Assembly (NCBI GenBank): GCA_002839375.1
Contig: PGXY01000007.1
Coordinates: 124,001-188,000, forward strand
DNA from: Spirochaetae bacterium HGW-Spirochaetae-1
GTDB lineage: Bacteria > Spirochaetota > UBA4802 > UBA5550
Length of the DNA: 64,000 nucleotides
Direction of reading: 5' to 3'
In this document: piece by piece, positions 12,601 through 32,373 of the stretch
How the letters are laid out: each line of letters begins with the position of its first letter
Position numbering within the stretch: position 1 is the stretch's first letter
Position numbers and translations under genes: made by a program
Notes under the pieces: model-generated
Databases searched by the model: none
What the model saw: only the letters and a program-made list of their open reading frames with translations
What the model was told of the DNA's origin: nothing

Positions 12601-15328
12601 GGTAGACCTCGTTATATGGAATGACGACCATGCCGGCTACCGGCAGATTCTTCATGAACAGATACTCGGCCTTATCGCAGCAGGCATTGAGAGCAATCCT
12701 GCCGACAGGTCAGGCGAAATATTTGTGAGAAATACCGACCAGATATCGGGCGAAGACCAGGTTCTAATGCAAACCGTTGCCCGTGCCATCATCACCGACA
12801 GGCTGGGACTGCTGGCAGAGCAGATCACAAGGAAAAACATGGCGCGAATGCCCGTTCCTCAACTTGTGCCTGTAAGAACCATACGCGCTGAAGAGCCTGC
12901 AGCAGTCGTAGAGCCGCGAACCGACCTGATCCATTTTAATGGATACGGGGGATTCACCCCGGACGGTCGCGAATACATCACTACGACCGGACAGGGACAA
13001 AATACACCCGCGCCATGGGTGAATATACTGGCTAACAAAAACTTCGGAACTGTAATTTCTGAAAGCGGTATGGGCTATACCTGGTCTGAAAACGCCCATG
13101 AGTTTCGCCTCACCCCGTGGGACAACGATCCCGTCTGCGACACGGGAGGTGAAGCTTTTTACATACGAGATGAAGAGCGCGGCCACTTCTGGTCCCCCAT
13201 GCCGCTTCCGAAGCGAGGATCATCCCCGTATGTGACCCGACACGGATTCGGCTACAGCGTATTCGAACACACCGAGCGCGGCATCAGTACAGAGGTGTGG
13301 GTATATGTGGCTCTTGACGCAAGCATCAAATTTACCGTGGTGAAGATACATAATCTTTCAAAACGCCCGCGCCGCCTCTCTCTGACCGGATACACTGAAT
13401 GGGTACTGGGCGACCTGCGCTGTAAATCCTCGATGCATGTGGTCACCCGGCAGGACCCCCTGACCGGTGCAATTTTCGCACACAATCAATTCAACAAGGA
13501 GTTTGAAGGCCGGACCGCATTCTTCGATGTGGACAATGATATCCGCACTATAACCTGCGACCGGACTGAATTCATTGGCCGCAACGGAACACTCAGGGAA
13601 CCGGCAGCTATGACAAAAATAAAGCTTTCCAACCGTACCGGTGCAGCCCTTGATCCCTGTGCAGCCATCCGGGTTCCCTTTGATCTCGATGGAGGAGAGG
13701 AATGCGAAATAATCTTCAGACTCGGATCAGGCATGGACTCCAATGATGCCAATTCACTGCTACGACGATTCCGTGGTGCCTCCGCAGCACGCGGCTCCCT
13801 CGAAGCGGTATGGGACTATTGGAAACACACCCTGGGTGCGGTACAAGTTGAGACCCCCGATCAATCATTGAACGTACTGGCTAACGGCTGGCTTATATAC
13901 CAGGTTCTTGCATGCCGCATGTGGGCACGAAGCGGATATTACCAATCAGGTGGCGCGTACGGTTTCCGCGATCAGCTCCAGGACGCCATGGCCATCATAC
14001 ATACCGAGCCGGGTCTCCTTCGCGAACACCTGCTCCTCTGTGCCGCGCATCAATTCGAAGAGGGAGACGTTCAGCACTGGTGGCATCCTCCGCTTGACCG
14101 GGGCGTACGCACACACTGCTCAGACGATTTCCTCTGGCTGCCTCTGGCTACTGCACGATATATCCTCTGTACCGGAGACACAGGCGTACTGGATGAACCT
14201 GTCTCTTTCATTAAAGGCCGCCCGGTAAGCGAAGACGAAGACTCATACTATGATCTTCCTATACGTTCGGATGAAACTGCTACGCTATATGATCATTGCA
14301 TACGCGCCCTCAAGAGGGCACAGCGCTACGGTGTGCATGGCCTGCCGCTCATCGGCTCAGGAGACTGGAACGACGGCATGGAATTTATCGGTAAACACGG
14401 AAAAGGTGAAAGTGTGTGGCTTGCATTTTTCTTCTATAATACGCTCATGCAGTTTTCAAAGATTGCAGAGATTCATAACGACCGTCCTTTTGCCGAGCAT
14501 TGTCAGACGGAAGCCGCAAAACTGCGCGAGAATATTGAAGCTAATGCATGGGACGGAGAGTGGTACCGCCGGGCTTATTTCGATGACGGCACCCCCCTCG
14601 GATCAGCAAAAAATGCCGAATGCCAGATCGATTCTATCGCTCAAAGCTGGTCAATTTTATCAGGCGCAGGGTATCCGGGCCGCTCGCGTATGGCAATGAA
14701 ATCACTTGATCGGCGCCTGGTCCGCCGCAGCAGCTCACTCGTACAGCTTCTAGACCCGCCATTCGATAAATCGGATTTAAACCCCGGATACATCAAGGGA
14801 TACGTTCCGGGCGTAAGAGAAAATGGCGGCCAGTACACACATGCAGCGGTCTGGGCTGCGATGGCTTTCGCGGCATCAGGTGAAGGTGAAAAAGCATGGG
14901 AGCTCATGGGCATGATAAACCCGGTCAACCACGGGAGCACATTTAACGATATTGCTACTTACAGGGTTGAACCTTATGTAATGGCTGCTGATGTATATGG
15001 CCAGGCCCCTCATACAGGCCGCGGTGGCTGGACCTGGTACACTGGCTCAGCCGGATGGATGTACCGTCTTATTATTGAATCACTCCTGGGTCTTCGTCTT
15101 GACAAACAGACTCTGCATATAGAACCGTGTCTGCACCCCGATTGGAAAAACATCAAGGTGCACTACAGATACCGGGAAACGGTTTATCATATTTCCATAA
15201 TTAAGATAATCGAAGAGAGCCGTGAACCAGGGTTAACCATAGATGGAAAATCATGGCAGGGTTCGGCAATACCGCTTGTCGACGACCACAAAGAACATTC
15301 GGTTGAGGTGAGGATAATAAATACATAA
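6626..15328 (+). CDS. ndvB: Cyclic beta-1,2-glucan synthase (GT84 / glycoamylase-like / GH94)
   Basis: A 2900-residue protein, the size of Brucella Cgs and rhizobial NdvB, which make cyclic osmoregulated glucans at the inner membrane from UDP-glucose. Order: N-terminal region (1-430), membrane helices (about 440-495), GT84 glycosyltransferase with 'ITLDTDTQLPRDS' (about 637) and 'RRRRWIRGDWQI' (about 787), further membrane helices (about 850-1000), a glycoamylase-like domain (about 1250-1500), then repeated GH94-type sandwich domains and a GH94 catalytic domain. 'GSGDWNDGMEF' (about 2580) holds the family's general acid; in Brucella this domain trims chains by phosphorolysis and sets ring size. 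RBS GAGG lies 6 bases before the ATG. Monocistronic. No frameshift seen. Confidence 0.95.
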   Translation: MNSRKNRNLTNRIKTLLFNEEFPQKYAGGPPPLRSTLFSAEQMDKHGKIIAGIHILRPETARNQDLLSRLTENESILLEVQTLLSEAVRENRRITPAGEWLLDNFYLIEEHIQTGRKHLPKGYSRELPCLQNGQSAGLPRVYDIAMELISHGDGRVDPNNLTRFIASYQSISALKLGELWAIPIMLRLTLIENLRRVAACIAANMTEQDLAGYWADRMLDIIEKDAKSLILIVAEMAHSNPNMTSAFVAELSRRLQGQSSALALPLTWIEQQLSETGLTIKQLVHSEIQQQAADQVSISNSIGSLRFLSAMDWHEFVESMSIVDHTLREDPGGFYSEMDFKTRDRYRHVIEKVAKNSRLNITETEVAREAIQLAREGAENNGITDRTAHVGFYLIEKGFSRLERKAKIRLSPRSTIKKTGARFPLFIFLVTIMALTAIFTIGLFAKAHTGGMNGWMLILFTILTVLCTVHPAVALTNWLATLLVNPDLLPRMDFSEGIPSELRTLVVVPTMITSPENIADLVEALEVRFLANSDENVYFGLLTDLKDADKETLPEDELLTGLAREKIEHLNKKYHGSKGDSFFLFHRPRLWNSKERLWMGYERKRGKLADLNSLLRGGSEGHFSLIVGKIEILSSIKYVITLDTDTQLPRDSARQFVGAMAHPLNRARYDNKKKYIVEGYGIIQPRVAVILPAVNRSRYARLNGSESGIDPYTRVVSDVYQDLFHEGSFIGKGIYEVDSFEQALKDRLPENLILSHDLLEGCYARAGLLSDVQLYDEYPSNYHEDVVRRRRWIRGDWQIISWILPFVPGHDGHLRRNPVSLLSRWKIFDNLRRSLTPVALTLFILLGWIFQSPAWFWTLSAATMILVPSLFSTVLNLFRKPKEMLLNQHLVSTLRSAGMNFAQGLFTIVCLPYEAYYSTNAILRTGWRMLILHRRLLEWNPSGGMRSRASLMDSYLEMFIAPVIALTTMIYLAISNSSALPAALPILILWAASPAIAYWISRPISRREAHLSDEQNLFLRKLARKTWAYFEKFVGPEDNWLPPDNFQEAPSGIVAHRTSPTNIGLSLLANLTAYDFGYIPAGQLIERSGNTLDAMKKLEQHRGHFYNWYDTLTLDPLPPLYISTVDSGNLAGHLLVLKPGLIALPDHYIVNPGLFNGIADTLRICIDAAETVIPPPLTQFMIEIESVINTSPTTLTSARQCLERLIEYAEKTVSASDTRLGSESLWWAQDLIGQCRAALEELIYLAPWTSLYPTKDKLPIDQRIDRIPTLRELAQMEIDILPSIPYPSVEPEEFNVSDELRRLILQSISRATLRIADIERLADQAEHFALMEYDFLYDKKQHLLTIGYNVDQHRADSGYYDLLASEARLCSFIAIAQRQLPQESWFALGRLLTSDGSEPVLLSWSGSMFEYLMPLLVMPTYENTLLDQTYKAVIKRQIGYGKLRNVPWGISESGYNALGIRLDYQYRAFGVPGLGLKRGLADDLVIAPYASMLALMVAPEEAVKNLEQLSALKFEGRYGLYEAIDYTPSRLPLGQQHAVVKSYMSHHSGMSLLSLSYLLLNRPMQKRFEANPLCKAAMLLLQEKIPDATSLYLNAAGASETQIGTAPPDIPMRIFSNPDSKAPEVQLLSNGRYHVMVTTAGGGYSRWKDIAVTRWREDTTCDNHGAFCYIRDMESREYWSTAYQPTLKAPKNYEVIFSEGRAEFRRRDFDIDTYTSIVVSPEDDIELRRVRLTNFSKKTRTMEITSYAETVLAPFYAEALHPAFSNLFVQTEIVSSKHVILSNRRPRSIDEKTPWMFHVMTLQEGNMIRVSHETNRMQFIGRGNSLVNPRAICDPDPLKENEGSVLDPISAIRYVITLEPEESAVIDMVSGIGETREEALRLAEKYRDRSLSDRVFDLAWTHSQVVLRQLNITEAEAQLYGHLAGFIIHAHLYLRADRNIIKSNLRGQSGLWGYSISGDLPIVLLQIENAVNIDLVRQLVSAHAYWRLKGLAVDLVIWNDDHAGYRQILHEQILGLIAAGIESNPADRSGEIFVRNTDQISGEDQVLMQTVARAIITDRLGLLAEQITRKNMARMPVPQLVPVRTIRAEEPAAVVEPRTDLIHFNGYGGFTPDGREYITTTGQGQNTPAPWVNILANKNFGTVISESGMGYTWSENAHEFRLTPWDNDPVCDTGGEAFYIRDEERGHFWSPMPLPKRGSSPYVTRHGFGYSVFEHTERGISTEVWVYVALDASIKFTVVKIHNLSKRPRRLSLTGYTEWVLGDLRCKSSMHVVTRQDPLTGAIFAHNQFNKEFEGRTAFFDVDNDIRTITCDRTEFIGRNGTLREPAAMTKIKLSNRTGAALDPCAAIRVPFDLDGGEECEIIFRLGSGMDSNDANSLLRRFRGASAARGSLEAVWDYWKHTLGAVQVETPDQSLNVLANGWLIYQVLACRMWARSGYYQSGGAYGFRDQLQDAMAIIHTEPGLLREHLLLCAAHQFEEGDVQHWWHPPLDRGVRTHCSDDFLWLPLATARYILCTGDTGVLDEPVSFIKGRPVSEDEDSYYDLPIRSDETATLYDHCIRALKRAQRYGVHGLPLIGSGDWNDGMEFIGKHGKGESVWLAFFFYNTLMQFSKIAEIHNDRPFAEHCQTEAAKLRENIEANAWDGEWYRRAYFDDGTPLGSAKNAECQIDSIAQSWSILSGAGYPGRSRMAMKSLDRRLVRRSSSLVQLLDPPFDKSDLNPGYIKGYVPGVRENGGQYTHAAVWAAMAFAASGEGEKAWELMGMINPVNHGSTFNDIATYRVEPYVMAADVYGQAPHTGRGGWTWYTGSAGWMYRLIIESLLGLRLDKQTLHIEPCLHPDWKNIKVHYRYRETVYHISIIKIIEESREPGLTIDGKSWQGSAIPLVDDHKEHSVEVRIINT

Positions 15329-19090: not shown

Positions 19091-19375
19091 AACACGAGTA
19101 TATTTTCCTGATTTATAATTCTGGAAAAAAATTTCTTCCTTTATTATCCGTCCGGACGACTTTTTTTCTATCCCGTGCATTATATTATCAGAGCCGCATG
19201 CACCTTTCACTTTTTATACGTATCGATTCTTTATCCCAGTACATAGCCATATATCATTCTTCAGTGAACAGAAATTCTATACGGCATCATATCATCATAC
19301 AATTACGAGGGGCTCACTAAAGTCATCAAAATAATGTCCCTTGTGAGATTAACATCATACAAACGGAGGCAATAC

Positions 19376-20722
19376 ATGAAAGATTTACAGCTGCAGAACG
19401 TAGACATAATTGTAGTGGGTTCGGGAAGCGGCGGAGCCCGTGTCGCCAGCGAACTGGCCGGTAAAGGTAAAAAAGTGCTCATACTCGAAGGCAGCGGCGG
19501 AAACAGGATACACGGTACCTTCCTCTGGTCATTGCTTCACATATTCCTCCCCTTTAAAAGTATGCTTTTCACTCCGGAACTGCTCGGCATGGTACGCGGT
19601 CTCACTACGGGCGGAAGTTCGGTGTTTTATTACGGGACCGCGTTCCCGGTTATACACGAAGCTTTTAAAAAATATGGGATTGATATCACTGCAGAGGAAA
19701 AGGAGGCCCGAAAGGAACTGCCCATCGGCCCTCTCAAGGATGCCATGGTAACCCCCATGGCCAGGCGGATTATGGAAAGCGCCCGGTCGCTCGGATATGA
19801 CTGGAAACAACTTGATAAGTTCATGTATCAGGACCGTTGGCGGCCCGGTTATCAATTCGGCTACTATGGCGACAGGAAAAACGTAAAATGGAGCGCCAAA
19901 ATGGACGTTGACGAGGCTATAAAAAAAGGCGCCGTGCTGCTGAACAGGGCGAAGGTTAAAAAAGTTATTTTCGACGGGACAAGGGCCACGGGAGTTGAAA
20001 TGAAATACCGGGGACGAACCGTGCAGGTGACGGCAAAAACAATAATCGTGGCTGCCGGCGGAATCGGCACACCGGTCGTGCTCCGCAAGTCAGGCATAAA
20101 GGGCGTCGGTTACAATTATTTTTTTGACCCGCTCATCACCGTATGCGGAAAGGTAAAGGATGTCAGAAAACGGAAAGATGAAATCCCCATGACGGCCGGC
20201 TGCGTTATGCGCGATGAAGGGATTGTCATGACCGATATGGCCGAGCCCTTCATGCTGGACCAGGTATTCACCGTGTCGGCTTTTCGATTCTGGAGGATAT
20301 TTGAAACAAGAAAAACTCTCCGCATCATGATTAAAATCAGGGATGACCTGTCAGGAAACCTCACGGACCGCGGCGGGGTGCGGAAAAGACTCACCCCTGC
20401 CGACAGGGAAAAGCTCCGCAAGGGATACGATATGGCAAAGAACATCCTTCTTAATGCGGGCGCAAAGGGAATTTACAAAACCTGGAAGCTTGCGGCACAT
20501 CCCGGTGGAACCGTCCGTGTGGGGCATATGTTAGATGCCGATCTCAAGTTGAAAGGATATGACAACCTGTATGTATGTGATTGCTCCGTGATTCCCGAAC
20601 CGTTCGGGCTGCCGCCGGTGCTGACACTCGTATGCCTGGGGAAACGCCTGGCGAAGCACCTGCTGACTGAAAAAAAAGGCACTTCCAGGGCAAAAAAGCC
20701 CGCCTACGCACTCAAAAATTGA
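19376..20722 (+). CDS. GMC-type FAD oxidoreductase
   Basis: A flavoprotein with an N-terminal dinucleotide-binding motif 'IIVVGSGSGGARVASEL' (about residues 10-26) and a C-terminal GMC domain with 'AAHPGGTVRVG' and 'DCSVIPEPFGLPPVLT'. GMC enzymes oxidise alcohols or act as dehydrogenases on small substrates. The start at 19376 has GGAGG 7 bases upstream; the in-frame ATG at 19334 is unlikely. It is first in the strand-consistent series leading to 32373 and is separated from the next gene by 68 bases containing a stem-loop. The preceding 285 bases (19091-19375) hold no gene; I saw no clear promoter there. Its link with the cluster is positional. Confidence 0.85.
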   Translation: MKDLQLQNVDIIVVGSGSGGARVASELAGKGKKVLILEGSGGNRIHGTFLWSLLHIFLPFKSMLFTPELLGMVRGLTTGGSSVFYYGTAFPVIHEAFKKYGIDITAEEKEARKELPIGPLKDAMVTPMARRIMESARSLGYDWKQLDKFMYQDRWRPGYQFGYYGDRKNVKWSAKMDVDEAIKKGAVLLNRAKVKKVIFDGTRATGVEMKYRGRTVQVTAKTIIVAAGGIGTPVVLRKSGIKGVGYNYFFDPLITVCGKVKDVRKRKDEIPMTAGCVMRDEGIVMTDMAEPFMLDQVFTVSAFRFWRIFETRKTLRIMIKIRDDLSGNLTDRGGVRKRLTPADREKLRKGYDMAKNILLNAGAKGIYKTWKLAAHPGGTVRVGHMLDADLKLKGYDNLYVCDCSVIPEPFGLPPVLTLVCLGKRLAKHLLTEKKGTSRAKKPAYALKN

Positions 20723-20790: not shown

Positions 20791-22263
20791 ATGAACATTA
20801 AAAATACAGGTTCCGCAAAGAAGGCCGGCTACGACGGCGATGAAAACCGGGCGTTTCTCGGCAGCTTTATAAAGTCCTTCACACGGACCGAGGAATTCCG
20901 CGAAGTCGTTCACGCGGCCCTTCCTGAAGTATTCACCCTGTGGGCCGGGAAAAGCAGGATCAAGAAAAAACTTGCCGGCACCCTGGGCAGGTTCCTGGCA
21001 AAAGGATTCGCACCCCGGGGTGAATCAGCGGGAAGCCCCGTATTAGAAACCTGCGGAGACCCTGAATTCATACGGCAGGCCTCCACGCAGATGCCGGAAA
21101 TTTTCAATGCCGTGATTGCCGGTCTCAACGCCTTTTCCAGGGGCCTGTCTGAAATGCCCGTGGATGAGCACCGCCGCTGCCTGAAATCGGTTATTGAAAA
21201 TGCCGATGCGGGAGGAATCGGCGAGTTAATCACCAACCTGTTCAAAAGCGCCAACCTGCACCGGAGCGACCCTGATTCTCTGGTCGAAACACTCAGGCCG
21301 AAGGTCAGGTCCCTTATTGCCGGGATTGATTTTGGCGAATTAAAGGAAGCAGTGGACGGTTCGGCCGACAGCGTTACTGCTCTGACGGAAATGATCAATG
21401 AAGAGATGTGGGAATATCCCGCAAAGATGGTATGCCTGCTGTCACTCCTTCCCTCCCTGTTAAATATGGCGGTTCGGTCAGCGGTGAAAACAACGGCGCC
21501 TATCAACAGGCTGGCCCCGGATCTCCTGACCGATGTCGTCCTTTCCCTGGTACGCGAAATTGACGGTAAAAGTATAGGCTCACTTATAAACGAGCTGTGT
21601 GAAATAATAAGAAAAATCCATACCGGCAGCTCCCTTATAGGCGACAGGGGCAACCATGCCTTTTCCGCGGCAGTGTCGCAGCTTGGTGCCGCCACCCTGG
21701 GTTCCGTTGATATCCTTCTCCTTCTCAAGGCGCGGGGAATGCTTCGCGATATTGGAGACCTGGCAAGAATTTCCGCCGCAGAGATTCTCGGACAGAATCC
21801 CGCAATCGCCGCGGATTTTTTCCAGGGTCATTTCAGATCCCTGGTATCCTGGGTGCGGGCCTGGAGCCTGAAAGCCGATATCTTTGAAAGGGTTTTCACC
21901 GATGAGGACATTGCCAGGGAATTTGCCCGGGGCATGGGAGAGCTTGATGCCCAGGAGATGGCTTTCACGGCAAGCAGCATTTGCGGACTTTTCAACCAGG
22001 TTCGGCGTCTCTCGCCGGGAACGATTAAAAACTTCCTGTCGCAGTTTTTCAGTTCCCTCAATGAATCCACCGTGGCCGATGCTGCGCGTTGGTTTACCGG
22101 GGATCTTGTCCAATCAATGGAGCCTATAGCGCCGGAGATAATGCCGCCGATTATCAGCGGTATTGCAGAACTTATTGCCCCCCATGGAGAGATGTCAGCA
22201 GAAATGCAGGAAGCCTGTGAAAAACTCAGGAACGTTTTCAACCGCAAGGAGGTTTCGGCATGA
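20791..22263 (+). CDS. Unknown 490-residue helical protein at head of dehydratase/ACS-like cluster
   Basis: I do not recognise this family. The product is predicted largely alpha-helical and soluble, with repeated hydrophobic patterns such as 'LLTDVVLSLVREIDGKSIGSL' spread along its length and only a few scattered cysteines (for example 'ETCGDPEF', 'SICGLFNQ'), so it does not look like an Fe-S protein. Gene start is well supported by GAGGAGG 7-8 bases before the ATG. Its TGA overlaps the ATG of the HgdB-like gene (ATGA), which ties it to the cluster by translational coupling. It may be a scaffold, chaperone or lipid-binding partner; that is speculation. No signal peptide or clear membrane anchor. 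Confidence 0.8.
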   Translation: MNIKNTGSAKKAGYDGDENRAFLGSFIKSFTRTEEFREVVHAALPEVFTLWAGKSRIKKKLAGTLGRFLAKGFAPRGESAGSPVLETCGDPEFIRQASTQMPEIFNAVIAGLNAFSRGLSEMPVDEHRRCLKSVIENADAGGIGELITNLFKSANLHRSDPDSLVETLRPKVRSLIAGIDFGELKEAVDGSADSVTALTEMINEEMWEYPAKMVCLLSLLPSLLNMAVRSAVKTTAPINRLAPDLLTDVVLSLVREIDGKSIGSLINELCEIIRKIHTGSSLIGDRGNHAFSAAVSQLGAATLGSVDILLLLKARGMLRDIGDLARISAAEILGQNPAIAADFFQGHFRSLVSWVRAWSLKADIFERVFTDEDIAREFARGMGELDAQEMAFTASSICGLFNQVRRLSPGTIKNFLSQFFSSLNESTVADAARWFTGDLVQSMEPIAPEIMPPIISGIAELIAPHGEMSAEMQEACEKLRNVFNRKEVSA

Positions 22264-23411
22264 ATAAAGCATTCATGGAAGCGGCACTTACACTGAACAA
22301 TGATTATGTCCGGGAGTGGAAACAGGCCGGCAATAAGATCATAGGCTATACCTGTTCATATGTTCCCGACGAGCTCTTTTCAGCTGCCGGGATTCTGCCG
22401 TACCGGATACGGGGATTCGGCGCGACAGAGGCAACCATTGGAGATACATATTTCGGACCCTTTATATGCAGCCTCCCCAAGGCGATGCTGCAACTGGCAG
22501 GAGAAGGAAAGTTTGATTTCCTCGACGGTGCCATAATCACCCCGGGATGCGATTCCATGAGGCGTCTCGACGAGTGCTGGCGCAAGGCCGGCGAGGATAT
22601 CACGGGGATCATGCCGAAGTTTTTCTTCCACTTCGGGGTACCCCATAAATATACCGATTACTCTGTGAAATGGTTCATCGATGAGATACTGCGACTTAAA
22701 TCGGCCGTAGAGACCCATTTCGACAGAACAATAACCGGGGAAAAACTCAGTGATGCCATACGGCTCTTCAATAAAAGCCGTGATCTCCTGGACGAGCTCG
22801 ACAGGCTCCGGATCAGCGACGCTCCGGCCATCACGGGTACCGAGGCCATGGCGGTAATACTCGCCGGAACCACGATGCCCCGCGTCCCCTACGTGGAGCT
22901 GCTGGAGAAACTTATCAGCGACATTAAAAACAGCAATACGAGGATAAGCGGCATGACCAGGCTCATGCTTGTGGGCAGCGCCAGCGATGACGTAAATCTT
23001 GTGCAGTTAATCGAGGGAAACAAGGCCATCGTTGTAGGAGATAATCTCTGTTTCGGATCACGCTTTCATGTCGACCGCGTCGAAGAAGATGGAGACCCCA
23101 TAGAATCCCTGGCAAAACGATACCTGGCAAAGAATGAATGCCCCCGCATGTACGGAGAGTATGCAGGCCGCCTGAAAATGCTCATGGACAAGGCCGGCAA
23201 GGCAAAAGTCGATGGGGTAATCTTACAGAATATCCGTTTCTGCGACCTTCACGGCTCTGAGAACGGTCTTTTTGAGCGTGATCTCGAGAAAGCCGGCATA
23301 CCATGCCTGAAGATTGAGCGCGAATACGGCCCGCTGGTGGAAACGGGCCGGTTGAAAATGCGTGTCGACGCATTCCTGGAAAGAATCGGACAGAGGAGGC
23401 AAACTGCATGA
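22260..23411 (+). CDS. 2-hydroxyacyl-CoA dehydratase / benzoyl-CoA reductase family subunit, HgdB-like (module 1)
   Basis: 383 residues of the HgdB/BcrB/FldB fold that carries a [4Fe-4S] cluster or, in double-cubane proteins, an [8Fe-9S] cluster. The three N-terminal ligand cysteines are Cys32 ('GYTCSYVPDEL'), Cys70 ('PFICSLPKA') and Cys97 ('TPGCDSMRRL'), spacing 38 and 27, the same as in the module 2 counterpart. The C-terminal family motif 'NIRFCDLHGSENG' is also there. It should accept an electron from an ATP-dependent activase. Overlaps both neighbours by 4 bases. Whether it dehydrates a hydroxyacyl-CoA, reduces an aromatic CoA ester or is a double-cubane reductase cannot be decided from sequence. 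Confidence 0.88.
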   Translation: MNKAFMEAALTLNNDYVREWKQAGNKIIGYTCSYVPDELFSAAGILPYRIRGFGATEATIGDTYFGPFICSLPKAMLQLAGEGKFDFLDGAIITPGCDSMRRLDECWRKAGEDITGIMPKFFFHFGVPHKYTDYSVKWFIDEILRLKSAVETHFDRTITGEKLSDAIRLFNKSRDLLDELDRLRISDAPAITGTEAMAVILAGTTMPRVPYVELLEKLISDIKNSNTRISGMTRLMLVGSASDDVNLVQLIEGNKAIVVGDNLCFGSRFHVDRVEEDGDPIESLAKRYLAKNECPRMYGEYAGRLKMLMDKAGKAKVDGVILQNIRFCDLHGSENGLFERDLEKAGIPCLKIEREYGPLVETGRLKMRVDAFLERIGQRRQTA

Positions 23412-24817
23412 GACCTGAATTAAAAGAATACAAGTTTGATACGATGCTCTGGAGCACTTTCGTTGCCGCGTCAAAATTAAAAAATGGATCGGAAAAGGAA
23501 TATCGCAGCATGCTGCCCTATATCCCCTACTTCAACAGTACCGTTGACGCGCTGCTGAGATTGGGAGAACCGGGACGGCTTTTCATCGAATGCATAGCGA
23601 AGTATTTCGAGAATTATATAACGGCACGTGACAGGGGTTTTCATAATGCCGTCACGACATTCTGCTTCTCCCCGTCCATCCTCTATGCCATGGACGTATT
23701 TCCCATTTGCCTTGAGGTAATCTCCGTAGCCCAGACCTTTGCGTACAAACGGGGAACTGCTGAATTTCTCGACTATTGCAATGAAGTGGGATATACGGAA
23801 ACCTCGTGTTCGTCCCAGAGGGGAACCCTCGGCGCTTTTCTTGCCGGTCTGGGCGCTGACATCGATATGATACTGACCAATACACCCGGCGTATGCGACA
23901 CCAACGCGAATGCTTTCGCCTTTGCAGCGGCGTATCTCAACAAGCCGTTCTTTTCACTCGATATACCGCCGGTCCTGGTGGATCCCAGGACAGATGAATT
24001 CCAGGATTCTGATTTCAGGGCCCTCATCATTTTTCTTGAAAAGCAAACGGGCAGAAAACTCGACCGGGACCGTCTCCGCATCGTGCTCGACGAGGTCGCG
24101 AAGCAGGAGGAAATCGTTGCCGAGCTGGAAGACCTGGCGCGAATTGTTCCCAATCCGCTTCCCGTCGCCTATAATCTCATGGTCTATGCATCGCGCTTCC
24201 TCTTCTCCGGGATGAAGGAATGCACGGCAGTGCTGGAGTCAATGCGCAGGATTGGGACCGACAATGCTGATAATGGCCTTTCCGGTCTCTCCGGCGGTGT
24301 CGAAAAGATGCGTACTTTCTTCTGTTATATTGATCACTACACCAACAGCTTAAAGCTCTGGGATTTCCTCGACAGGAACGGTATCTGTTACCAGGGGAAC
24401 ATTCTCAGCCGTTCCTGGGCCAATACCGCTCCCCATGTAAAGGAATATCATACCGAAGCAGCGGCCTACTCTTTCGATAAAACCGACCTGGACTCCATGA
24501 TCAGGACCATGGCCGACCACAACTCCCGCATGCCCATGATAAAATCGATCCGCGGGCCCTATGACGCACCGGACATGTGGCTCCAGGACACCCTGTCACT
24601 GGCAAAAATGTACAATGCCGACTGCATCATATATAATGGTACACCGGGATGCCGGAACACCTGGGGCATGGTAAAACTCCTGGCGCGGGACACCGAAAAG
24701 GCCGGTATTCCAACATTCATCATGTATGGCGATGCCTTTGATGACCGGGTTGAATCCTGGGAGGCGTCACAGGACCGGCTTGAAGAATTTTTCCGAGTAC
24801 GGAGGTTAATGGCATGA
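23408..24817 (+). CDS. 2-hydroxyacyl-CoA dehydratase family subunit, HgdA-like (module 1)
   Basis: 469 residues, expected partner of the preceding HgdB-like subunit. Candidate Fe-S cysteines in the family positions are Cys86 ('TTFCFSPSIL'), Cys134 ('ETSCSSQRGTLG') and Cys163 ('TPGVCDTNANAF'). Near the C-terminus 'NGTPGCRNTWGMVKLL' matches the family's conserved end motif. Overlaps the upstream gene by 4 bases and the downstream activase by 4 bases (ATGA), so all three are likely translated together. The substrate pocket is not predictable from sequence. Its module 2 relative has lost the first of these cysteines. Confidence 0.85.
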   Translation: MRPELKEYKFDTMLWSTFVAASKLKNGSEKEYRSMLPYIPYFNSTVDALLRLGEPGRLFIECIAKYFENYITARDRGFHNAVTTFCFSPSILYAMDVFPICLEVISVAQTFAYKRGTAEFLDYCNEVGYTETSCSSQRGTLGAFLAGLGADIDMILTNTPGVCDTNANAFAFAAAYLNKPFFSLDIPPVLVDPRTDEFQDSDFRALIIFLEKQTGRKLDRDRLRIVLDEVAKQEEIVAELEDLARIVPNPLPVAYNLMVYASRFLFSGMKECTAVLESMRRIGTDNADNGLSGLSGGVEKMRTFFCYIDHYTNSLKLWDFLDRNGICYQGNILSRSWANTAPHVKEYHTEAAAYSFDKTDLDSMIRTMADHNSRMPMIKSIRGPYDAPDMWLQDTLSLAKMYNADCIIYNGTPGCRNTWGMVKLLARDTEKAGIPTFIMYGDAFDDRVESWEASQDRLEEFFRVRRLMA

Positions 24818-25605
24818 TAGTAGCCGGATGCGACGTGGGTTCCCTCACATCAAAAGCAGTGATAATGAAGGAGGGGAAAATAATCGAATCAATGATAATA
24901 AAGTCAAAGGCAAAGCCCGGTGACTCGGCAGATGAAGTCATGCGGCAGGCCCTTTCCAGGGCAGGACTCACCATGGAGGATATTTCGTATTGCGTTGGTA
25001 CGGGATACGGCCGTGACAGAATTTCTTTTGTAAACGAGGCGCTTACCGAGATCGCCTGTCACGGCAGGGGCGCCCAGTGGCTGATCCCATCGGCACGAAC
25101 CGTCATCGATATCGGCGGGCAGGACTGCAAAGCGCTGCGGCTCGACGCGAACGGCAACATGGTGAAGTTCACCGCCAACGACAAGTGCGCGTCGGGTACC
25201 GGCCGTTTTCTCGAGGTCATGGCGCGGGTTCTCCATGTGGAGCTTTCCGATCTTGGACAGTTATCCTCAGCATCAAAGAGCCCCATCAACCTGGCATCGG
25301 CCTGCACGGTATGGGCCCAGGCCGATGTTATCCAGCACCTTAACAACGGCGTTCCCGTGGCAGACATCGCAGCGGGCATCAATAGCGCCATGGCTGCCCG
25401 AATGTCGATCATCGTGAACAATATCGGCTTCGAACGGGATGTTGTCATGACCGGCGGCGTTGCCAAAAATACCGGCGTGGTATCAGCCCTTGAAAAATTG
25501 CTTGGATTGCGCATCAAGCGTGTCACCAAATCGGACCCGCAGCTCGCCGGCGCCATCGGTGCGGCACTCTACGCAGAGGATAAGTCAAAAGGAGGAAAAG
25601 CATGA
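24814..25605 (+). CDS. ATP-dependent activase (BadF/BadG/BcrA/HgdC family), first of two in module 1
   Basis: 263 residues with the ASKHA ATPase fold: phosphate loop 'GCDVGSLTSKAVIM' and second loop 'VIDIGGQDCKAL'. The two cysteines that hold the dimer-bridging [4Fe-4S] cluster are present, Cys125 ('NDKCASGTGRF') and Cys164 ('ASACTVWAQADV'), matching HgdC Cys127 and Cys166. Such proteins couple ATP hydrolysis to injection of one very low potential electron into the dehydratase partner. The gene overlaps the next activase by 4 bases. Two activases in a row raise the question of a BcrA/BcrD-style heterodimer, since each is about 260-270 residues. Confidence 0.93.
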   Translation: MIVAGCDVGSLTSKAVIMKEGKIIESMIIKSKAKPGDSADEVMRQALSRAGLTMEDISYCVGTGYGRDRISFVNEALTEIACHGRGAQWLIPSARTVIDIGGQDCKALRLDANGNMVKFTANDKCASGTGRFLEVMARVLHVELSDLGQLSSASKSPINLASACTVWAQADVIQHLNNGVPVADIAAGINSAMAARMSIIVNNIGFERDVVMTGGVAKNTGVVSALEKLLGLRIKRVTKSDPQLAGAIGAALYAEDKSKGGKA

Positions 25606-26429: not shown

Positions 26430-27164
26430 TTGAAACTTTTCGAAAATATCATCACCGGTCTCAGGTCATGGATGGATGACATGAAGGGATCATCCGCCGT
26501 CTATAATGAACGCTCTGTCGTTCATGGGACCTGGCCGGCAGGCGAACGGGGCAATATAGTATTGCAGAACGATACCGCCGTGGAGCTGGGCAATCCCCGC
26601 GATGAATCGGCATCATTCCTGTTATGGACAGACGACGGGGACCTGGTCCACGACGGCATGTTTACCTGCATCGGACCGGAAATATCATCCTATTCCCCCA
26701 GCCGCCTGCCCCTGGGCAAGGCGGTCATACTTGCCGTTACAGGCTTCACCGAGGACAACTGTTATGAGCGATACCGCGAAATTGAATTGATACGGTATGA
26801 TCTCAACCTCAGGGGCTACATGCTGCGTGCCGTATCCCAGCACATGCGGGAATGGAGCCGGATAAGCAGGCAGGCCATGGAGGACGGGTTTTCTCTCGAG
26901 ATACTCGCTTCGGTCCTCATGGAGCGGTACCGCCGGCTTGACTATGTTATAGCCGTGGAGATTCTCTTCGTGACCTCATCACCGGAGGATGTACGCTCAC
27001 TCCGGCACATGGGCGAAGGGGCAATGCGCCTTATAGGGGCAATGAATAAGATGGCCCGTGAGCTTTCCTTCGATTGCGGGACATGCGACTATACTGACAT
27101 CTGCGCAGAAATTGAAGGTTTGCGCTCAATGCGTAATTCAACAAAAAATAAGATTTCCTGTTGA
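26430..27164 (+). CDS. Acetyl-CoA-synthase middle-domain-like protein with CxxCx5C tail (module 1)
   Basis: A 244-residue protein resembling the middle domain of acetyl-CoA synthase (AcsB/CdhC): 'AVELGNPRDESASFLLW', 'IGPEI', 'LPLGKAVILAV', 'CYERYREIEL', 'RGYMLRAVSQHMREWSRIS' and 'VEILFVTSSPEDV' follow the order I remember for that domain. Where ACS continues into its Ni-Fe-S A-cluster domain (Cys-x2-Cys-x8-Cys), this protein stops after Cys216-x2-Cys219-x5-Cys225 ('FDCGTCDYTDIC'). The start is a TTG with GAGG upstream, 6 bases after the activase stop. It cannot be a full ACS. Metal or Fe-S binding by the three cysteines is inferred. The paralog at 30788 keeps the same motif, so it is under selection. 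Confidence 0.78.
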   Translation: MKLFENIITGLRSWMDDMKGSSAVYNERSVVHGTWPAGERGNIVLQNDTAVELGNPRDESASFLLWTDDGDLVHDGMFTCIGPEISSYSPSRLPLGKAVILAVTGFTEDNCYERYREIELIRYDLNLRGYMLRAVSQHMREWSRISRQAMEDGFSLEILASVLMERYRRLDYVIAVEILFVTSSPEDVRSLRHMGEGAMRLIGAMNKMARELSFDCGTCDYTDICAEIEGLRSMRNSTKNKISC

Positions 27165-27192
27165 ATGATACAATTCCACGAGGAGTGAATAT

Positions 27193-28323
27193 ATGAAACA
27201 ATCCGCCGATATTTCCCTGTTTGACGATCTCCTGGATGAACCATTAAACCGCCTCGTTGAACAGGCCATGGATGAGAAGCGAGTCCCCGTGGGCTACACC
27301 TGCAGTTATGTCCCTGAAACACTCCTTTCCGCGGGAAAGCTTTTCCCGGTGCGCCTGAGGGCTCCCGGACTTACGGGGACCGAGCTGGCCGATACGTATC
27401 TCTCCAACGTCATCTGCTCCTATACCAAGAGCCTCCTGGAATATGCCCTGGGCGGAGGCTATGACTACCTGGGCGGTATCGTCTTTACTGCAAATTGCGA
27501 TCATATGCGTCGCCTCATGGATAACATTGAGTACCTCCGGAAACCGTCCTTTATCCACACCCTTGACGTTCCGCACCGGCGTGGCGAAGCTGCCCTTGAC
27601 TGGTTCACAGAAGAACTGGCCGTCCTTGCTGAAAAGCTTTCAGAACATTTCGGCATAGATGCTTTCGGCGACAATCTCGCGGGGGCAGTCAGAAACCGCA
27701 ACATGTTTTCCCGTCTCATCAGGGCAATCGGTGAACTGAGAAAGCATGACCCTCCCCTCATCACGGGTGGAGAGTTTCAGCGGATAATGATAGCCTCCCA
27801 GGTCACTCCCGTTGATCTCCTCGTACCGCTGCTGGAGGATTTTCACCGGGAGGCGATCGAACGGGATGGAGTCGGCCATTACCGGGCACGGATCATGGTT
27901 GTGGGCGGCGAGCTTGACGATTCTTCCTTTATCGATATCATCGAATCCACGGGCGGTCTCGTCGTGGCTGACCGGTTCTGCACCGGGTCCCTTCCCGCCC
28001 TCGATCCCGTTCCGGAGAACGGTGATCCCCTGAGGGACATCGCGGAACATACACTCAACAAAATCCTCTGCCCGCGGATGATGGAAGAATTCGGTGAACG
28101 CGCCTCGGCGATCAGGAGCAATGTGCTGGAATACGGGGCTGACGGCGTGATCATACAGGCAATAAAGTTCTGCGACACCTGGGGTGTCGAAGGAAGCACG
28201 CTGACCTCGGAACTCCGTTCCACGGGAATCCCCGTGCTGCGCCTGGACCGGGAATACCGTCCCGGTGCCGAGGGACAGCTTCGCACTCGAGTGCAGGCCT
28301 TTATTGAAAGCATGGGGAAATGA
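27193..28323 (+). CDS. 2-hydroxyacyl-CoA dehydratase family subunit, HgdB-like (module 2)
   Basis: 376 residues, paralog of the gene at 22260. Ligand cysteines Cys37 ('GYTCSYVPETL'), Cys75 ('NVICSYTKSL') and Cys102 ('TANCDHMRRLM') keep the 38/27 spacing. 'AIKFCDTWGVEGS' near the end matches the family's C-terminal motif. A GAGGAG ribosome site lies before the ATG and a 28-base gap separates it from module 1. The matching cysteine spacing across the two modules argues for the same kind of cluster. Partner: the HgdA-like gene that follows. Reaction unknown. Confidence 0.87.
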   Translation: MKQSADISLFDDLLDEPLNRLVEQAMDEKRVPVGYTCSYVPETLLSAGKLFPVRLRAPGLTGTELADTYLSNVICSYTKSLLEYALGGGYDYLGGIVFTANCDHMRRLMDNIEYLRKPSFIHTLDVPHRRGEAALDWFTEELAVLAEKLSEHFGIDAFGDNLAGAVRNRNMFSRLIRAIGELRKHDPPLITGGEFQRIMIASQVTPVDLLVPLLEDFHREAIERDGVGHYRARIMVVGGELDDSSFIDIIESTGGLVVADRFCTGSLPALDPVPENGDPLRDIAEHTLNKILCPRMMEEFGERASAIRSNVLEYGADGVIIQAIKFCDTWGVEGSTLTSELRSTGIPVLRLDREYRPGAEGQLRTRVQAFIESMGK

Positions 28324-28345
28324 AATTTTGACCGGGGAAAAAACT

Positions 28346-29779
28346 ATGAATAAGAACAGGCCTTCCGTAAGCGATTATCTTACACATGCCAGGCATGTTG
28401 TACTAATTTTATCCAGCTTCGCCCTTCTCGCTCTCAGGCTCGGCCCATTGGGCCTGGTGCGGAATATCAGGCGGTATCCATGGATACTGATTCTCCTGCG
28501 GGCGCCTTTCCTCATGGGACGGCTTGCCCGGGGCAGGACGGGCCTGTACCGCGAGGCCAATGAACTGGTCATTTCCTTTATCGTAAGCAGAATGGCATCG
28601 CTGATTTACCATACATTGAGCGGAAAAAGCAATTGCATAATGCACCAGGAAATGGTGCCGCCAGAAATATCCCATGCCATGGGGCTTTCCGTATGGCCGG
28701 CGGAAATCCTGTCGATTCTTTTGCCTATTATTGATACCCACGCAGCGGAGCGCTATATCGACCGTTGTGAAAACGAGGGCATACCCCCCGATATATGCAG
28801 CCATGTGAAAATGACACTGGGTGTCGTGCTGAACGGCGAAATGCCTCCCGCATCCATAATAGTCAGCTCGAATCTTCCCTGTGACGGGAATATGACGGGG
28901 TATGAAATCACGCGGCGGTATAATGACGCCTCCATCTTCAGGCTCGACATCCCGTTCAATTTCTACGATGAGCGGGCTGCCGGGTACTTCGCCGGGGAGC
29001 TGAGAAGGATGGTCTCCTGGCTGGAAGAGAACACCCCGGGACGCATGGACTGGGACCGCCTTCGCAGGATATGCGAGGAGCGGAACCGCATGGCGGAAGC
29101 GGAGATCGAGCTCTGGGATATGATCAGCGCCCGCCCGGCGCCACTTGCCGCAGAACCGGTATACCTGAGTCACCTATGGGCGTTCAACATTGATCCGGGC
29201 AACCGGATCGCCACCCGTCACTTCATGCGGCTCATCGAAATGGCCAGGCGCAACCTCTCCATGGGCGTTCCGGCAGTGCGGGAAGAACGTTTCCGCGCCG
29301 TATTATGGAACCCTCCCATCCTCCATTTTGCCGACCTGTTCCGCTGGGCCGAAGAGGAATACGGCGTGGCCCTGATCATCGACAGCATGAGCTACAATTC
29401 TCAGCCCCTCATAGACACGACTTCATCAGATACGATTTTACGCGACCTCGGTAAAATCGTCATGCAGGGGCCCATGGCGCGTCATACCAGGGGGCCGGCC
29501 GTTAATTATATCGATGATATATTCAGGATATATCACCGCTTCAACCTTGACATGGTTTGGGTGGCGGGGCATATCGGATGCAAAAATACCATGGCCCTGA
29601 ACCAGATGCTGCGCGAGGCATGCAGGGAAAAAGGAGTACCGCTCCTCATTATCGAATACGATCTTTCCGATCCCCGCATCTGTTCCCACGAAGGCATCAT
29701 CCGCCAGATCGACCATTTCATGGAAAACGTCATGAAGACGGGACGGCTCGAAAGAACCGTCGAGCTTGCTGCACAATAA
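28346..29779 (+). CDS. 2-hydroxyacyl-CoA dehydratase family subunit, HgdA-like, lacking the first family cysteine (module 2)
   Basis: About 477 residues from ATG 28346, which has GGGGA upstream and avoids overlap with the previous gene. The second and third family cysteines are kept, Cys151 ('PPDICSHVKMTLG') and Cys179 ('SSNLPCDGNMTGYE'), as is 'AGHIGCKNTMALNQML' near the end. At the first position, where family members read C-S-Y-V-P or similar, it reads Q-E-M-V-P; a cysteine four residues earlier ('SNCIMHQEM') may or may not replace it. A hydrophobic stretch near the N-terminus ('VVLILSSFALLALRL') is not seen in the module 1 subunit. The altered site suggests a different cluster or a structural role. 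Confidence 0.82.
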   Translation: MNKNRPSVSDYLTHARHVVLILSSFALLALRLGPLGLVRNIRRYPWILILLRAPFLMGRLARGRTGLYREANELVISFIVSRMASLIYHTLSGKSNCIMHQEMVPPEISHAMGLSVWPAEILSILLPIIDTHAAERYIDRCENEGIPPDICSHVKMTLGVVLNGEMPPASIIVSSNLPCDGNMTGYEITRRYNDASIFRLDIPFNFYDERAAGYFAGELRRMVSWLEENTPGRMDWDRLRRICEERNRMAEAEIELWDMISARPAPLAAEPVYLSHLWAFNIDPGNRIATRHFMRLIEMARRNLSMGVPAVREERFRAVLWNPPILHFADLFRWAEEEYGVALIIDSMSYNSQPLIDTTSSDTILRDLGKIVMQGPMARHTRGPAVNYIDDIFRIYHRFNLDMVWVAGHIGCKNTMALNQMLREACREKGVPLLIIEYDLSDPRICSHEGIIRQIDHFMENVMKTGRLERTVELAAQ

Positions 29780-29798
29780 TAAAATGAAGGAGGCGGTG

Positions 29799-30641
29799 AT
29801 GGAAAAATATTATTACGGCGGCTGCGATGTGGGCTCCACCACGGGAAAGGCGGTAATCATGGATGATACGAGGATAGTGTCCAGTTCCATAGTTCCCAGC
29901 GAAGTGGACCCGGAAATAACGGCACGCAATGCCCTGAACGCGGCGCTCGAGGGCCTCTCGGACGTGAAAGATCTTCGCGACCTGGTCTATCTCATCGGTA
30001 CCGGTTACGGCAGGAACGAGGTTCCCTTCGCCGATGAAAACATTTCGGAGATAACATGCCACGCCAGGGGAGCCTTCTTTTCCGATCCATCCATCAAGAC
30101 CATCGTTGATATAGGCGGCCAGGACATGAAGGGCATTGCCGTAGCCGATGACGGGTCGGTCCTTGAATTTATAATGAATGACAAGTGCGCGGCAGGAACC
30201 GGACGCTTCTATGAGGCCATGAGCAGAATATTCCGAATGGATCTCCCGGAATTTTCTTCCCTGTCCCTTACGGCAAAAAAGATCATACCGGTGACGGCGC
30301 AGTGCAGTGTTTTTGCGGAAACGGAGGTAATTAGCCTCCTGGCAAAAAAAAATCCCCCCGAAAATATATGCGCGGGCATCCAGGCAGCCGTTGCCAAGCG
30401 ATGCTTCACCCTTTTAAAGAGGGTCGGCCTGCGACCGAAACTGACAGTGACCGGAGGCTGTGCAAAAAACCGGGGGCTGCTGAAATCACTGGAGGAACTG
30501 CTGCGCGTCGACATTGCACCTCTTAATCACGACCCCCAGATCATGGGAGCCGTGGGTGCCGCCATCCTGGCCAGGGAAAAGGCCCGCATGAAAACCGGCA
30601 CTGCGGCAACGGAAGAAAAACGTCATGCCATAAATAAATGA
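29799..30641 (+). CDS. ATP-dependent activase of module 2
   Basis: About 280 residues of the HgdC/BadF activase family: 'GGCDVGSTTGKAVIM', 'IVDIGGQDMKGI', cluster cysteines Cys130 ('NDKCAAGTGRF') and Cys169 ('TAQCSVFAETEV'). It should form a homodimer with a bridging [4Fe-4S] cluster and deliver electrons to the module 2 dehydratase-like pair. I choose ATG 29799, with AAGGAGG 5 bases upstream, over the TTG at 29766 or the ATG at 29784. The C-terminal tail is lysine-rich. A 146-base gap follows before the second ACS-like gene; that gap holds no gene and no clear terminator. Confidence 0.93.
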   Translation: MEKYYYGGCDVGSTTGKAVIMDDTRIVSSSIVPSEVDPEITARNALNAALEGLSDVKDLRDLVYLIGTGYGRNEVPFADENISEITCHARGAFFSDPSIKTIVDIGGQDMKGIAVADDGSVLEFIMNDKCAAGTGRFYEAMSRIFRMDLPEFSSLSLTAKKIIPVTAQCSVFAETEVISLLAKKNPPENICAGIQAAVAKRCFTLLKRVGLRPKLTVTGGCAKNRGLLKSLEELLRVDIAPLNHDPQIMGAVGAAILAREKARMKTGTAATEEKRHAINK

Positions 30642-30787
30642 TTCAATCTTATTGATTCTGTATAGTTAAAACAGCTTTATAACATAATACCGCAATAGTA
30701 GAGTTTATTCATCGGAGAAAATATTGATGACATCAGTACACTGAAAATGGTTTCGTATAACTTCTCTGGTCATGGAGCAATAAATTT

Positions 30788-31573
30788 ATGCAGACGATGC
30801 ATTATATGCTTTACAAAATAACGGATATCCTTCTCTATCATGACATGGACTTTTTCAGCAAACATATAGAAAAAATAAGGTCATTTATAGAAAGAAAGAA
30901 GCAAAACGGCTCAGTATCGGAGCTTTCTTTTGATCAAAATTTGACATGGCCCGAAGGTAATAACAGAAACATAGTGCTTGCTCCGGACATGGCCGTTGAA
31001 CTGGGAAACCCCCGTGACACCTCGACATCTTTCTTCCTCTGGACCGACGATCCTGATAAAGTTCGCAACGGTCAAATAACCATAGTGGGACCGGAACTGA
31101 AAAAATGCCAGGGTAAAAGCCTGCCCTTCGGGAAAATAGTTCTTGTTTCAGGCCGTGATTTCAACGAAGACAACAGCTACGAGCGTTACCGCGAAATGGA
31201 AAGCCTGCGCTATGAGCTGAACCTGAAGGGGTACATGCTCCGTGCAGCGTCGCAATACAAGCGTGAATGGAGCCGTATAAGCAATGAGGCACTGGACAAG
31301 GGATTATCCTTCGCCGTGCTGGGAAGCGCCCTGATGAAACAGCTCTATGCCTTTGAATATATCGAAGCAGTGGAAGTGATATTCATCACCTCGAGCCGTG
31401 ACGACGTCTTCGAGATGTGGTCCGTCAATGAAGAGATAAGCAGGATAATCGGCGCCATGAACAAGATGATGCAGGAGCTGTCCTTCGACTGCGACAGCTG
31501 CGATTTTACCGATGTCTGCAGCGAGGTGTCGGACCTGCGCCACATGCGGGATTCCATGATGAAGAAGGTATGA
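30788..31573 (+). CDS. Acetyl-CoA-synthase middle-domain-like protein with CxxCx5C tail (module 2)
   Basis: 261 residues, clear paralog of the protein at 26430 along its whole length: 'AVELGNPRDTSTSFFLW', 'IVGPEL', 'LPFGKIVLV', 'SYERYREMESLRYELNLKG', 'REWSRIS', 'VEVIFITSS'. It ends with Cys235-x2-Cys238-x5-Cys244 ('FDCDSCDFTDVC'), matching the module 1 spacing. The start is uncertain: ATG 30788 has a weak GGAG, while an in-frame ATG at 30845 would align better with the paralog's N-terminus. Its TGA overlaps the ATG of the CooC-like ATPase gene, so the two are probably made together, which supports a metal-cofactor role. No CO dehydrogenase is nearby. Confidence 0.78.
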   Translation: MQTMHYMLYKITDILLYHDMDFFSKHIEKIRSFIERKKQNGSVSELSFDQNLTWPEGNNRNIVLAPDMAVELGNPRDTSTSFFLWTDDPDKVRNGQITIVGPELKKCQGKSLPFGKIVLVSGRDFNEDNSYERYREMESLRYELNLKGYMLRAASQYKREWSRISNEALDKGLSFAVLGSALMKQLYAFEYIEAVEVIFITSSRDDVFEMWSVNEEISRIIGAMNKMMQELSFDCDSCDFTDVCSEVSDLRHMRDSMMKKV

Positions 31574-32373
31574 CCATGGGAAAAACCGGGAAAGCTAAAA
31601 CTATGATAATGGCCGTATGCGGCAAAGGCGGCGTGGGCAAAACCTCCATCAGCGCCTCCATCATCCGCATCCTGGCTGAAGACCTGAACCGGAAGGTGCT
31701 GGCCATCGACGCTGACCCGGCTGTCGGCCTTGCCACGGCACTGGGTTTCACCCCCGCAAGGACCGTGGACGAAATCCGCAATGATCTCATCAGCAGGGTG
31801 GAAAAAGGCCAGGGCGGCGATAAAAAAGAGCTCCTGAAACAGCTTGACTATGAAATATTCGAGGCCCTCACGGAAAAAGGCAACCTGGCCTTCCTTGCCA
31901 TCGGCCGGCCCGAGAAAGTGGGCTGCTACTGCCAGGTGAACGATTTTCTCAAGGACGTCATTGAAACCATCGCCATGAATTTCGATTATGTTGTCATCGA
32001 CGGCGAGGCCGGCATCGAGCAGGTCAACCGGCGCGTCATGGAATCAGTCACGCACCTCCTCCTTGTCTCCGACGCATCCATGAAGGGAATCACCGTGATA
32101 AAGACCATCAAAGAAGTTTCCGATTCAGCCATAGCCTACGATGAGGCGGGCCTCATTCTGAATCGTATCCGCGGCAGCGAAGAGGCGGACCGCCTGTCGA
32201 TCCCCGAAGGAATCAGGCTCATCGGCTGGGTCCCGGAAGACGACATGATCCGCGAGACCGATATCCAGGGAAAGAGCATCATGAACATGGCCGAATCACC
32301 GGCCATCAGGGCGGTGCGCAAAATCCTGCTTTCCTTCAATTTCCTGCAGCACGATACGGGCGTGGCTGTATGA
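31570..32373 (+). CDS. CooC-like nickel-maturation P-loop ATPase
   Basis: 267 residues of the MinD/SIMIBI class with a deviant Walker A 'CGKGGVGKTSIS' (about 17-28) and 'AIDADPAVGLATAL'. It carries a Cys-x-Cys at 119/121 ('VGCYCQVND'), the pattern that binds nickel or zinc at the dimer interface of CooC, which loads nickel into CO dehydrogenase; AcsF/CooC2 relatives do this for ACS. Switch region 'VVIDGEAGIEQVNRR' is also CooC-like. It is the last gene of the cluster and overlaps the ACS-like gene by 4 bases. That association suggests its client is the ACS-like or dehydratase-like protein (inference). A hairpin follows at 32403-32447. Confidence 0.9.
   Translation: MTMGKTGKAKTMIMAVCGKGGVGKTSISASIIRILAEDLNRKVLAIDADPAVGLATALGFTPARTVDEIRNDLISRVEKGQGGDKKELLKQLDYEIFEALTEKGNLAFLAIGRPEKVGCYCQVNDFLKDVIETIAMNFDYVVIDGEAGIEQVNRRVMESVTHLLLVSDASMKGITVIKTIKEVSDSAIAYDEAGLILNRIRGSEEADRLSIPEGIRLIGWVPEDDMIRETDIQGKSIMNMAESPAIRAVRKILLSFNFLQHDTGVAV

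Follow-up and report, generated by a model that had tools for sequence, protein, structure and literature searches.

A reductase operon with two acetyl-CoA-synthase-like genes

The window analysed here is a 64,000-nucleotide stretch of contig PGXY01000007.1 (positions 124,001 to 188,000) from Spirochaetae bacterium HGW-Spirochaetae-1. Its forward strand carries an operon in the order F6, F5, F2u, F1u, F0u1, F0u2, F3a, F2d, F1d, F0d, a 146-nucleotide gap, F3b and F4, with 4-nucleotide overlaps between several adjacent genes. F3a and F3b (proteins P0001 and P0002) belong to a family, F3, of short proteins resembling the middle (A2) domain of acetyl-coenzyme A synthase (ACS), and they accompany subunits related to the class I benzoyl-CoA reductase BzdNOPQ and a CooC-type ATPase, F4. 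A sequence-only reading of this DNA had described P0001 and P0002 as truncated ACS-like proteins ending in a shared cysteine motif. Both open reading frames (ORFs) lie where it placed them, and the same C-x2-C-x5-C spacing is confirmed in their C-terminal parts (...FDCGTCDYTDIC... in P0001 and ...FDCDSCDFTDVC... in P0002). The label 'truncated' is misleading, because F3 is a stand-alone family of about 230–260 residues.

26430..27164, forward strand: F3a (P0001), ACS A2-domain-like, 244 residues, TTG start; PF03598 44.8 bits; in the clade of Spirochaetota F3
27075..27104, forward strand: CxxCx5C motif of F3a, CGTCDYTDIC; invariant in all 83 short homologues whose 3' end is intact
30788..31573, forward strand: F3b (P0002), ACS A2-domain-like, 261 residues; PF03598 59.9 bits; AlphaFold2 model with a mean predicted local distance difference test (pLDDT) score of 89; Z 18.9 to ACS residues 316–495
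31490..31519, forward strand: CxxCx5C motif of F3b, CDSCDFTDVC; invariant in the same 83 homologues

The start of F3a agrees with the M-x-L-F beginning of its aligned homologues. For F3b, homologues begin at P0002 residue 20, where the methionine is nearly invariant, so the true start may be 30845, judged from the alignment; a GGAG upstream of 30788 is a counterweight to this choice.

F3 proteins are complete ACS A2 domains

Both proteins exceed the gathering cut-off of 24 bits for the Pfam family CdhC (PF03598), P0001 with 44.8 bits and P0002 with 59.9 bits. A profile of 11 F3 homologues searched against the PDB retrieves ACS chains at E-values of 2e-13 to 7e-11, the single non-ACS match having an E-value of 0.67, and hhalign aligns the F3 profile with full ACS at 98% (E 1e-13). 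The AlphaFold model of F3b, built from 63 homologues, points in the same direction: its Foldseek matches in the PDB at E<=0.001 are exclusively ACS, and VIA-align superposes it on residues 316–495 of Moorella thermoacetica ACS with a Z score of 18.9 and 2.1 Å over 172 residues, compared with Z 3.5 for the best unrelated fold. These concordant results show that P0001 and P0002 are each a complete ACS A2 domain standing alone, and the homology to the ACS/CdhC middle domain proposed from sequence is thus borne out by both profile and structure.

F3 shares with ACS/CdhC (PF03598; structures 1OAO and 9C0S) the A2 fold and sequence, including a W-x-R element (W161 and R163 in F3), and has a CxxC where the ligands of the ACS A-cluster begin. 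In contrast to ACS, F3 proteins lack domains A1 and A3. Their three-cysteine CxxCx5C motif is soon followed by the end of the protein, whereas the full ACS of relatives carries CxxCx8Cx9C, the four-cysteine [4Fe-4S] set. F3 likewise lacks the Cys-Gly-Cys nickel site of A3, which is invariant in the relatives' full ACS (C605-G606-C607 in the L023 protein). In the tree, the ACS sequences fall into a single long-branched clade separate from F3, and several genomes hold full ACS and F3 together. One full ACS from a Spirochaetota relative (L119, G035:C228) has an intact A-cluster motif and is fused to a C-terminal part that by eye resembles CdhD/AcsD, the small subunit of the corrinoid protein. Similar ORFs of 1,085–1,207 residues with an ACS match are present in the Spirochaetota relatives G020, G022, G027, G036, G040, G042 and G045.

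Three invariant cysteines define the F3 family

Genomes were scanned at one genome per species, yielding 77 F3 loci; a broad initial alignment proved too divergent, and the closer one that replaced it under-samples distant F3 subtypes. The CxxCx5C motif is present in 83 of 85 collected proteins, the exceptions being the frame-split F3 gene of L107 and the L109 ORF, which lies outside the family. The three cysteines occur in each of the 83 short homologues whose 3' end is intact. Neither of the findings that would have told against the sequence-only reading, lack of a match to ACS/CdhC or unconserved cysteines, was obtained. The motif is kept across six phyla (counted by record titles), down to about 23% identity, and provides the sole cysteines of the protein in 22 of the 63 aligned F3 sequences. 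Its distance to the protein end is 10–37 residues in every homologue. Further invariant residues are E71, L72, G73, P75, G101, G148, W161 and R163. The L107 gene, broken over two frames, is the lone clearly broken copy among those collected. Profile alignment places C235, C238 and C244 of P0002 on the first three A-cluster cysteines of ACS, with a three-residue deletion.

A CooC-type ATPase accompanies F3

31570..32373, forward strand: F4, CooC-type P-loop ATPase; GKGGVGKT at 31621–31644, CXC at 31924–31932; overlaps F3b by 4 nucleotides

The best PDB match of F4 is CooC (3KJE, E 5e-19), with the CXC motifs aligned. The P-loop KGGxGK[TS] is found in all 61 F4 sequences examined and CXC in 56 of them, 44 by a first pattern and 12 as GC[FY]C[RK]; pattern search did not resolve the other five. 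F4 directly follows F3 in 60 of 76 loci, in most cases with an overlap between the genes, which upholds the proposed link to a CooC-like ATPase, and the subtypes in the F4 tree parallel those of F3. F4 resembles the nickel-loading ATPases CooC and AcsF in its KGGVGKT P-loop and aligned CXC, and the F4 model gives 151–186 bits to one ATPase type near ACS operons and 117–120 bits to a second CooC-like type near some ACS operons. Unlike these ATPases, F4 forms a separate clade and adjoins F3 instead of carbon monoxide dehydrogenase (CODH) or ACS.

In the HGW-Spirochaetae-1 genome, which is 96.5% complete, no full ACS and no nickel CODH above cut-off were found (best score 27 of 478 bits), and F4 is the sole CooC-like match. 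A role for F4 in assisting CODH or ACS is ruled out here, as neither client was found. Given that ACS, CODH and a second CooC-like ATPase are all missing, the client of F4 is most economically F3 or the reductase.

The reductase subunits resemble BzdNOPQ

The sequence-only reading, which had recognised the ACS homology, the cysteine motif shared by the two proteins and the CooC-like ATPase, missed the conserved operon with BzdNOPQ-like reductases in which they occur. The subunits in the window, all on the forward strand, are as follows.

22260..23411, forward strand: F2u, BzdN-like, six invariant cysteines in the double-cubane ligand pattern; best PDB match BzdN (8s02_B), E 1.5e-45
23408..24817, forward strand: F1u, BzdO-like catalytic subunit, three invariant cysteines; Glu kept, His131 replaced by Asn; PDB match to BzdO, E 2e-5
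24814..25605, forward strand: F0u1, BadF/BcrA/BzdQ-type ATPase (activase) with Cys125 and Cys164; TIGR00241 250.6 bits
25602..26423, forward strand: F0u2, second activase of the pair; TIGR00241 239 bits
27193..28323, forward strand: F2d, second BzdN-like subunit, six invariant cysteines; PF06050 283 bits
28346..29779 (start between 28265 and 28346), forward strand: F1d, second BzdO-like subunit, three invariant cysteines; PF06050 187.6 bits
29766..30641, forward strand: F0d, third activase; TIGR00241 236.6 bits

In the BzdNO structure, an [8Fe-9S] cluster is held by six cysteines of BzdN and a [4Fe-4S]-OH2 cluster by three cysteines of BzdO (PMC11971306). BzdO residues C95, C128, C380 and Glu65 correspond to C134, C163, C415 and E103 of F1u, and the bridging-cluster cysteines Cys125 and Cys164 of the activases are invariant. 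The window system thus resembles the class I benzoyl-CoA reductase BzdNOPQ (8S02; PMC11971306) in the six cysteines of its BzdN-like subunits, the three cysteines and Glu65 of its BzdO-like subunits, and its two activases. It differs in having a duplicated catalytic pair and the additional proteins F3, F4, F5 and F6, and His131 of BzdO is not kept: the position is Asn in 52 of 54 F1u proteins and Gly in 23 of 28 F1d proteins. Owing to this replacement, F1u and F1d are regarded as relatives of benzoyl-CoA reductases and not as proven members. Scores also fall far short of the cut-offs of the Bzd equivalog NCBIfam models (bzdN 154.6 of 453.8, bzdO 35 of 448.6, bzdQ 200.9 of 380.2). The window reductase belongs to the superfamily defined by PF06050 and PF01869, within which F2u is nearer to BzdN than to HadC or the double-cubane protein DCCP by PDB search.

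Conserved neighbourhood and evolution of F3-F4

19334..20722, forward strand: F6, GMC-family flavin adenine dinucleotide (FAD) oxidoreductase, first gene of the operon; PF00732 62.6 bits; lies close to F3 in 24 of the 44 well-flanked loci
20791..22263, forward strand: F5, all-helical protein of 490 residues; no Pfam or NCBIfam match; F3 present in each of the 18 genomes that encode F5

Across 44 well-flanked F3 loci, F1 occurs in 43, F2 and at least one activase in 42 each (two activases in 40), F4 in 41, F5 in 36 and F6 in 24. The order F6-x-F5-F2-F1-F0-F0-F3-F4 is kept even around strongly divergent F3 proteins of another family within the same order, at about 23% identity. F5 is restricted to F3 genomes: of 98 relatives, 18 carry F5 and every one of these encodes a short F3, and only two have a short F3 without F5. 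F5 has no match in Pfam or NCBIfam, and its all-helical model (pLDDT 81) matches no PDB fold at E<=0.001. Smithella-type loci have, in the upstream position, a shorter helical family, F11 (L059:2083-2736), that shows cross-scoring with F5. Some F3 loci are also flanked by genes for acyl-CoA dehydrogenases and for thiolase-like, ligase-like and thioesterase-like proteins; from these gene types, our guess is that the substrate is a carboxylic-acid or lipid-like compound. A search of the 146-nucleotide gap before F3b for RNA structure found none (z-score 0.25), and scans of the operon for promoters and terminators scored close to shuffled sequence and were set aside. Elsewhere in the window, positions 6626–15328 hold a single ORF of 2,900 residues, which by eye resembles a very large glycosyltransferase/glycoside-phosphorylase of the cyclic beta-glucan synthase kind.

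P0001 groups in the tree with Spirochaetota and P0002 with a mostly Desulfobacterota group, and a recent tandem duplication is ruled out by these different clades. Two close relatives (L146 and L147) have the order F3a-F4-F2d-F1d-F0d, and a third locus (L145) has a P0002-type F3-F4 pair beside another reductase set. In the window, the F4 once adjacent to F3a appears to have been lost, and the F3b-F4 pair seems to have a separate origin, a pattern consistent with F3-F4 behaving as a cassette.

A proposed metal-bearing partner of the reductase

The reading we favour, to which we give roughly even chances, is that F3 is an ACS-derived metalloprotein that is loaded by F4 and works with the class I benzoyl-CoA-reductase-like system. 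CooC and AcsF load CODH and ACS, and they are the model for how the dedicated F4 might load or assemble a metal centre on the three-cysteine site of F3. The likeliest cargo would be a [4Fe-4S] cluster that leaves one coordination position open, or else a site that contains nickel. The sequence-only reading had likewise suggested that the motif may be a small Fe-S or Ni site, or alternatively a docking site for the ATPase. Once loaded, F3 could serve as an electron-transfer or CoA-ester-handling partner of the BzdNOPQ-like ATP-dependent reductase, an enzyme of the class I benzoyl-CoA-reductase/2-hydroxyacyl-CoA-dehydratase type whose reaction would be the reduction of an acyl-CoA. Metal binding, loading by F4, contact with the reductase and the nature of the substrate are what we infer.

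Several observations weigh against this interpretation. The alignment register shifts by about 8 residues once the cysteines are masked, and the structural superposition of the F3b model ends at ACS residue 495. The equivalence of F3 and A-cluster cysteines, which derives from the cysteines themselves, is therefore only positional. The CXC motif of F4, as a sequence feature, does not prove nickel. The HGW-Spirochaetae-1 genome has one more reductase cluster (L133, G000:C3:74000-92000) with activases and F2d/F1d-like subunits, along with genes for a GMC oxidoreductase and for thiolase-like and ligase-like proteins. F3 and F4 are absent from it, although its counterparts in relatives (L115 and L104) do have them. 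F3 may therefore act in trans or be dispensable, a point that bears on all models in which it is a tight subunit.

Much the same facts could be explained by a maturation pair, in which F3 serves as a scaffold and, with the ATPase F4, passes a cluster or metal on to the reductase subunits while staying outside turnover; we consider this distinctly less probable than a metal-bearing partner. CooC-type ATPases are maturases and F4 is related to 3KJE; the cassette behaviour of F3-F4, with F3a-F4-F2d-F1d-F0d in close relatives and an F3b-F4 pair of another clade downstream in the window, fits such a role, as does a single F4 for two F3 proteins, and the L133 cluster may be served in trans. Against it, there is no obvious reason for a scaffold to have an ACS A2 domain, and BzdNO produced in E. 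coli without F3 or F4 carries both [8Fe-9S] and [4Fe-4S] (PMC11971306), so such clusters do not in general need F3 and F4. Less probable still is a zinc or structural role for the cysteines, with F3 mainly a CoA-thioester-binding or docking subunit and F4 serving something else. CxxC-type sites often bind zinc, and older work ascribes CoA binding to the A2 domain of ACS. However, F3 has Met at the position of ACS Trp418, which we take to be the CoA tryptophan and which was placed in the F3 alignment by offsets, so CoA binding through this residue is not claimed; the adjacency of F3 and F4 in 60 of 76 loci and the failure to find another CooC client in this genome also speak against this role.

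It is similarly improbable that F3 is itself a catalytic subunit alongside the double-cubane reductase, with a minimal A-cluster-like centre that F4 loads and that is built on the positions of the first three A-cluster cysteines; if so, ACS chemistry and ATP-driven radical reduction of acyl-CoA compounds would meet in one enzyme type. That F3 proteins are decayed ACS remnants or an assembly artefact is hardly credible: they are about one-third the length of ACS, but the same length, the same end and intact frames recur in dozens of unrelated genomes, and ACS stands apart as its own long-branch clade and coexists in full length with F3 in several genomes. A pseudogene or truncated ACS is ruled out by these uniformly intact homologues and the separate clade. 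Among the remaining explanations, a metal-bearing partner of the reductase is the one we prefer.

Implications

The building blocks of this system are known, and their combination and the F3 family appear to be new; no description of either the family or its reductase system was found in the open-licence literature, where absence is a weak indication. The F3 genes mark a widespread class I benzoyl-CoA-reductase-like system in Desulfobacterota, Spirochaetota, Actinomycetota, Chloroflexota, Bacillota and Myxococcota, and a defined gene set is now available for testing. Family-based annotation would call F3 a CODH/ACS beta subunit, so that part of the acetyl-CoA pathway would be wrongly credited to genomes. 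ACS is usually viewed as an enzyme of CO2 fixation and acetate cleavage. The present findings suggest that a new reductase system has reused a piece of an ancient carbon-fixation enzyme, and F3 with its own loader in genomes without ACS or CODH would show that parts of ACS were recruited for other chemistry.

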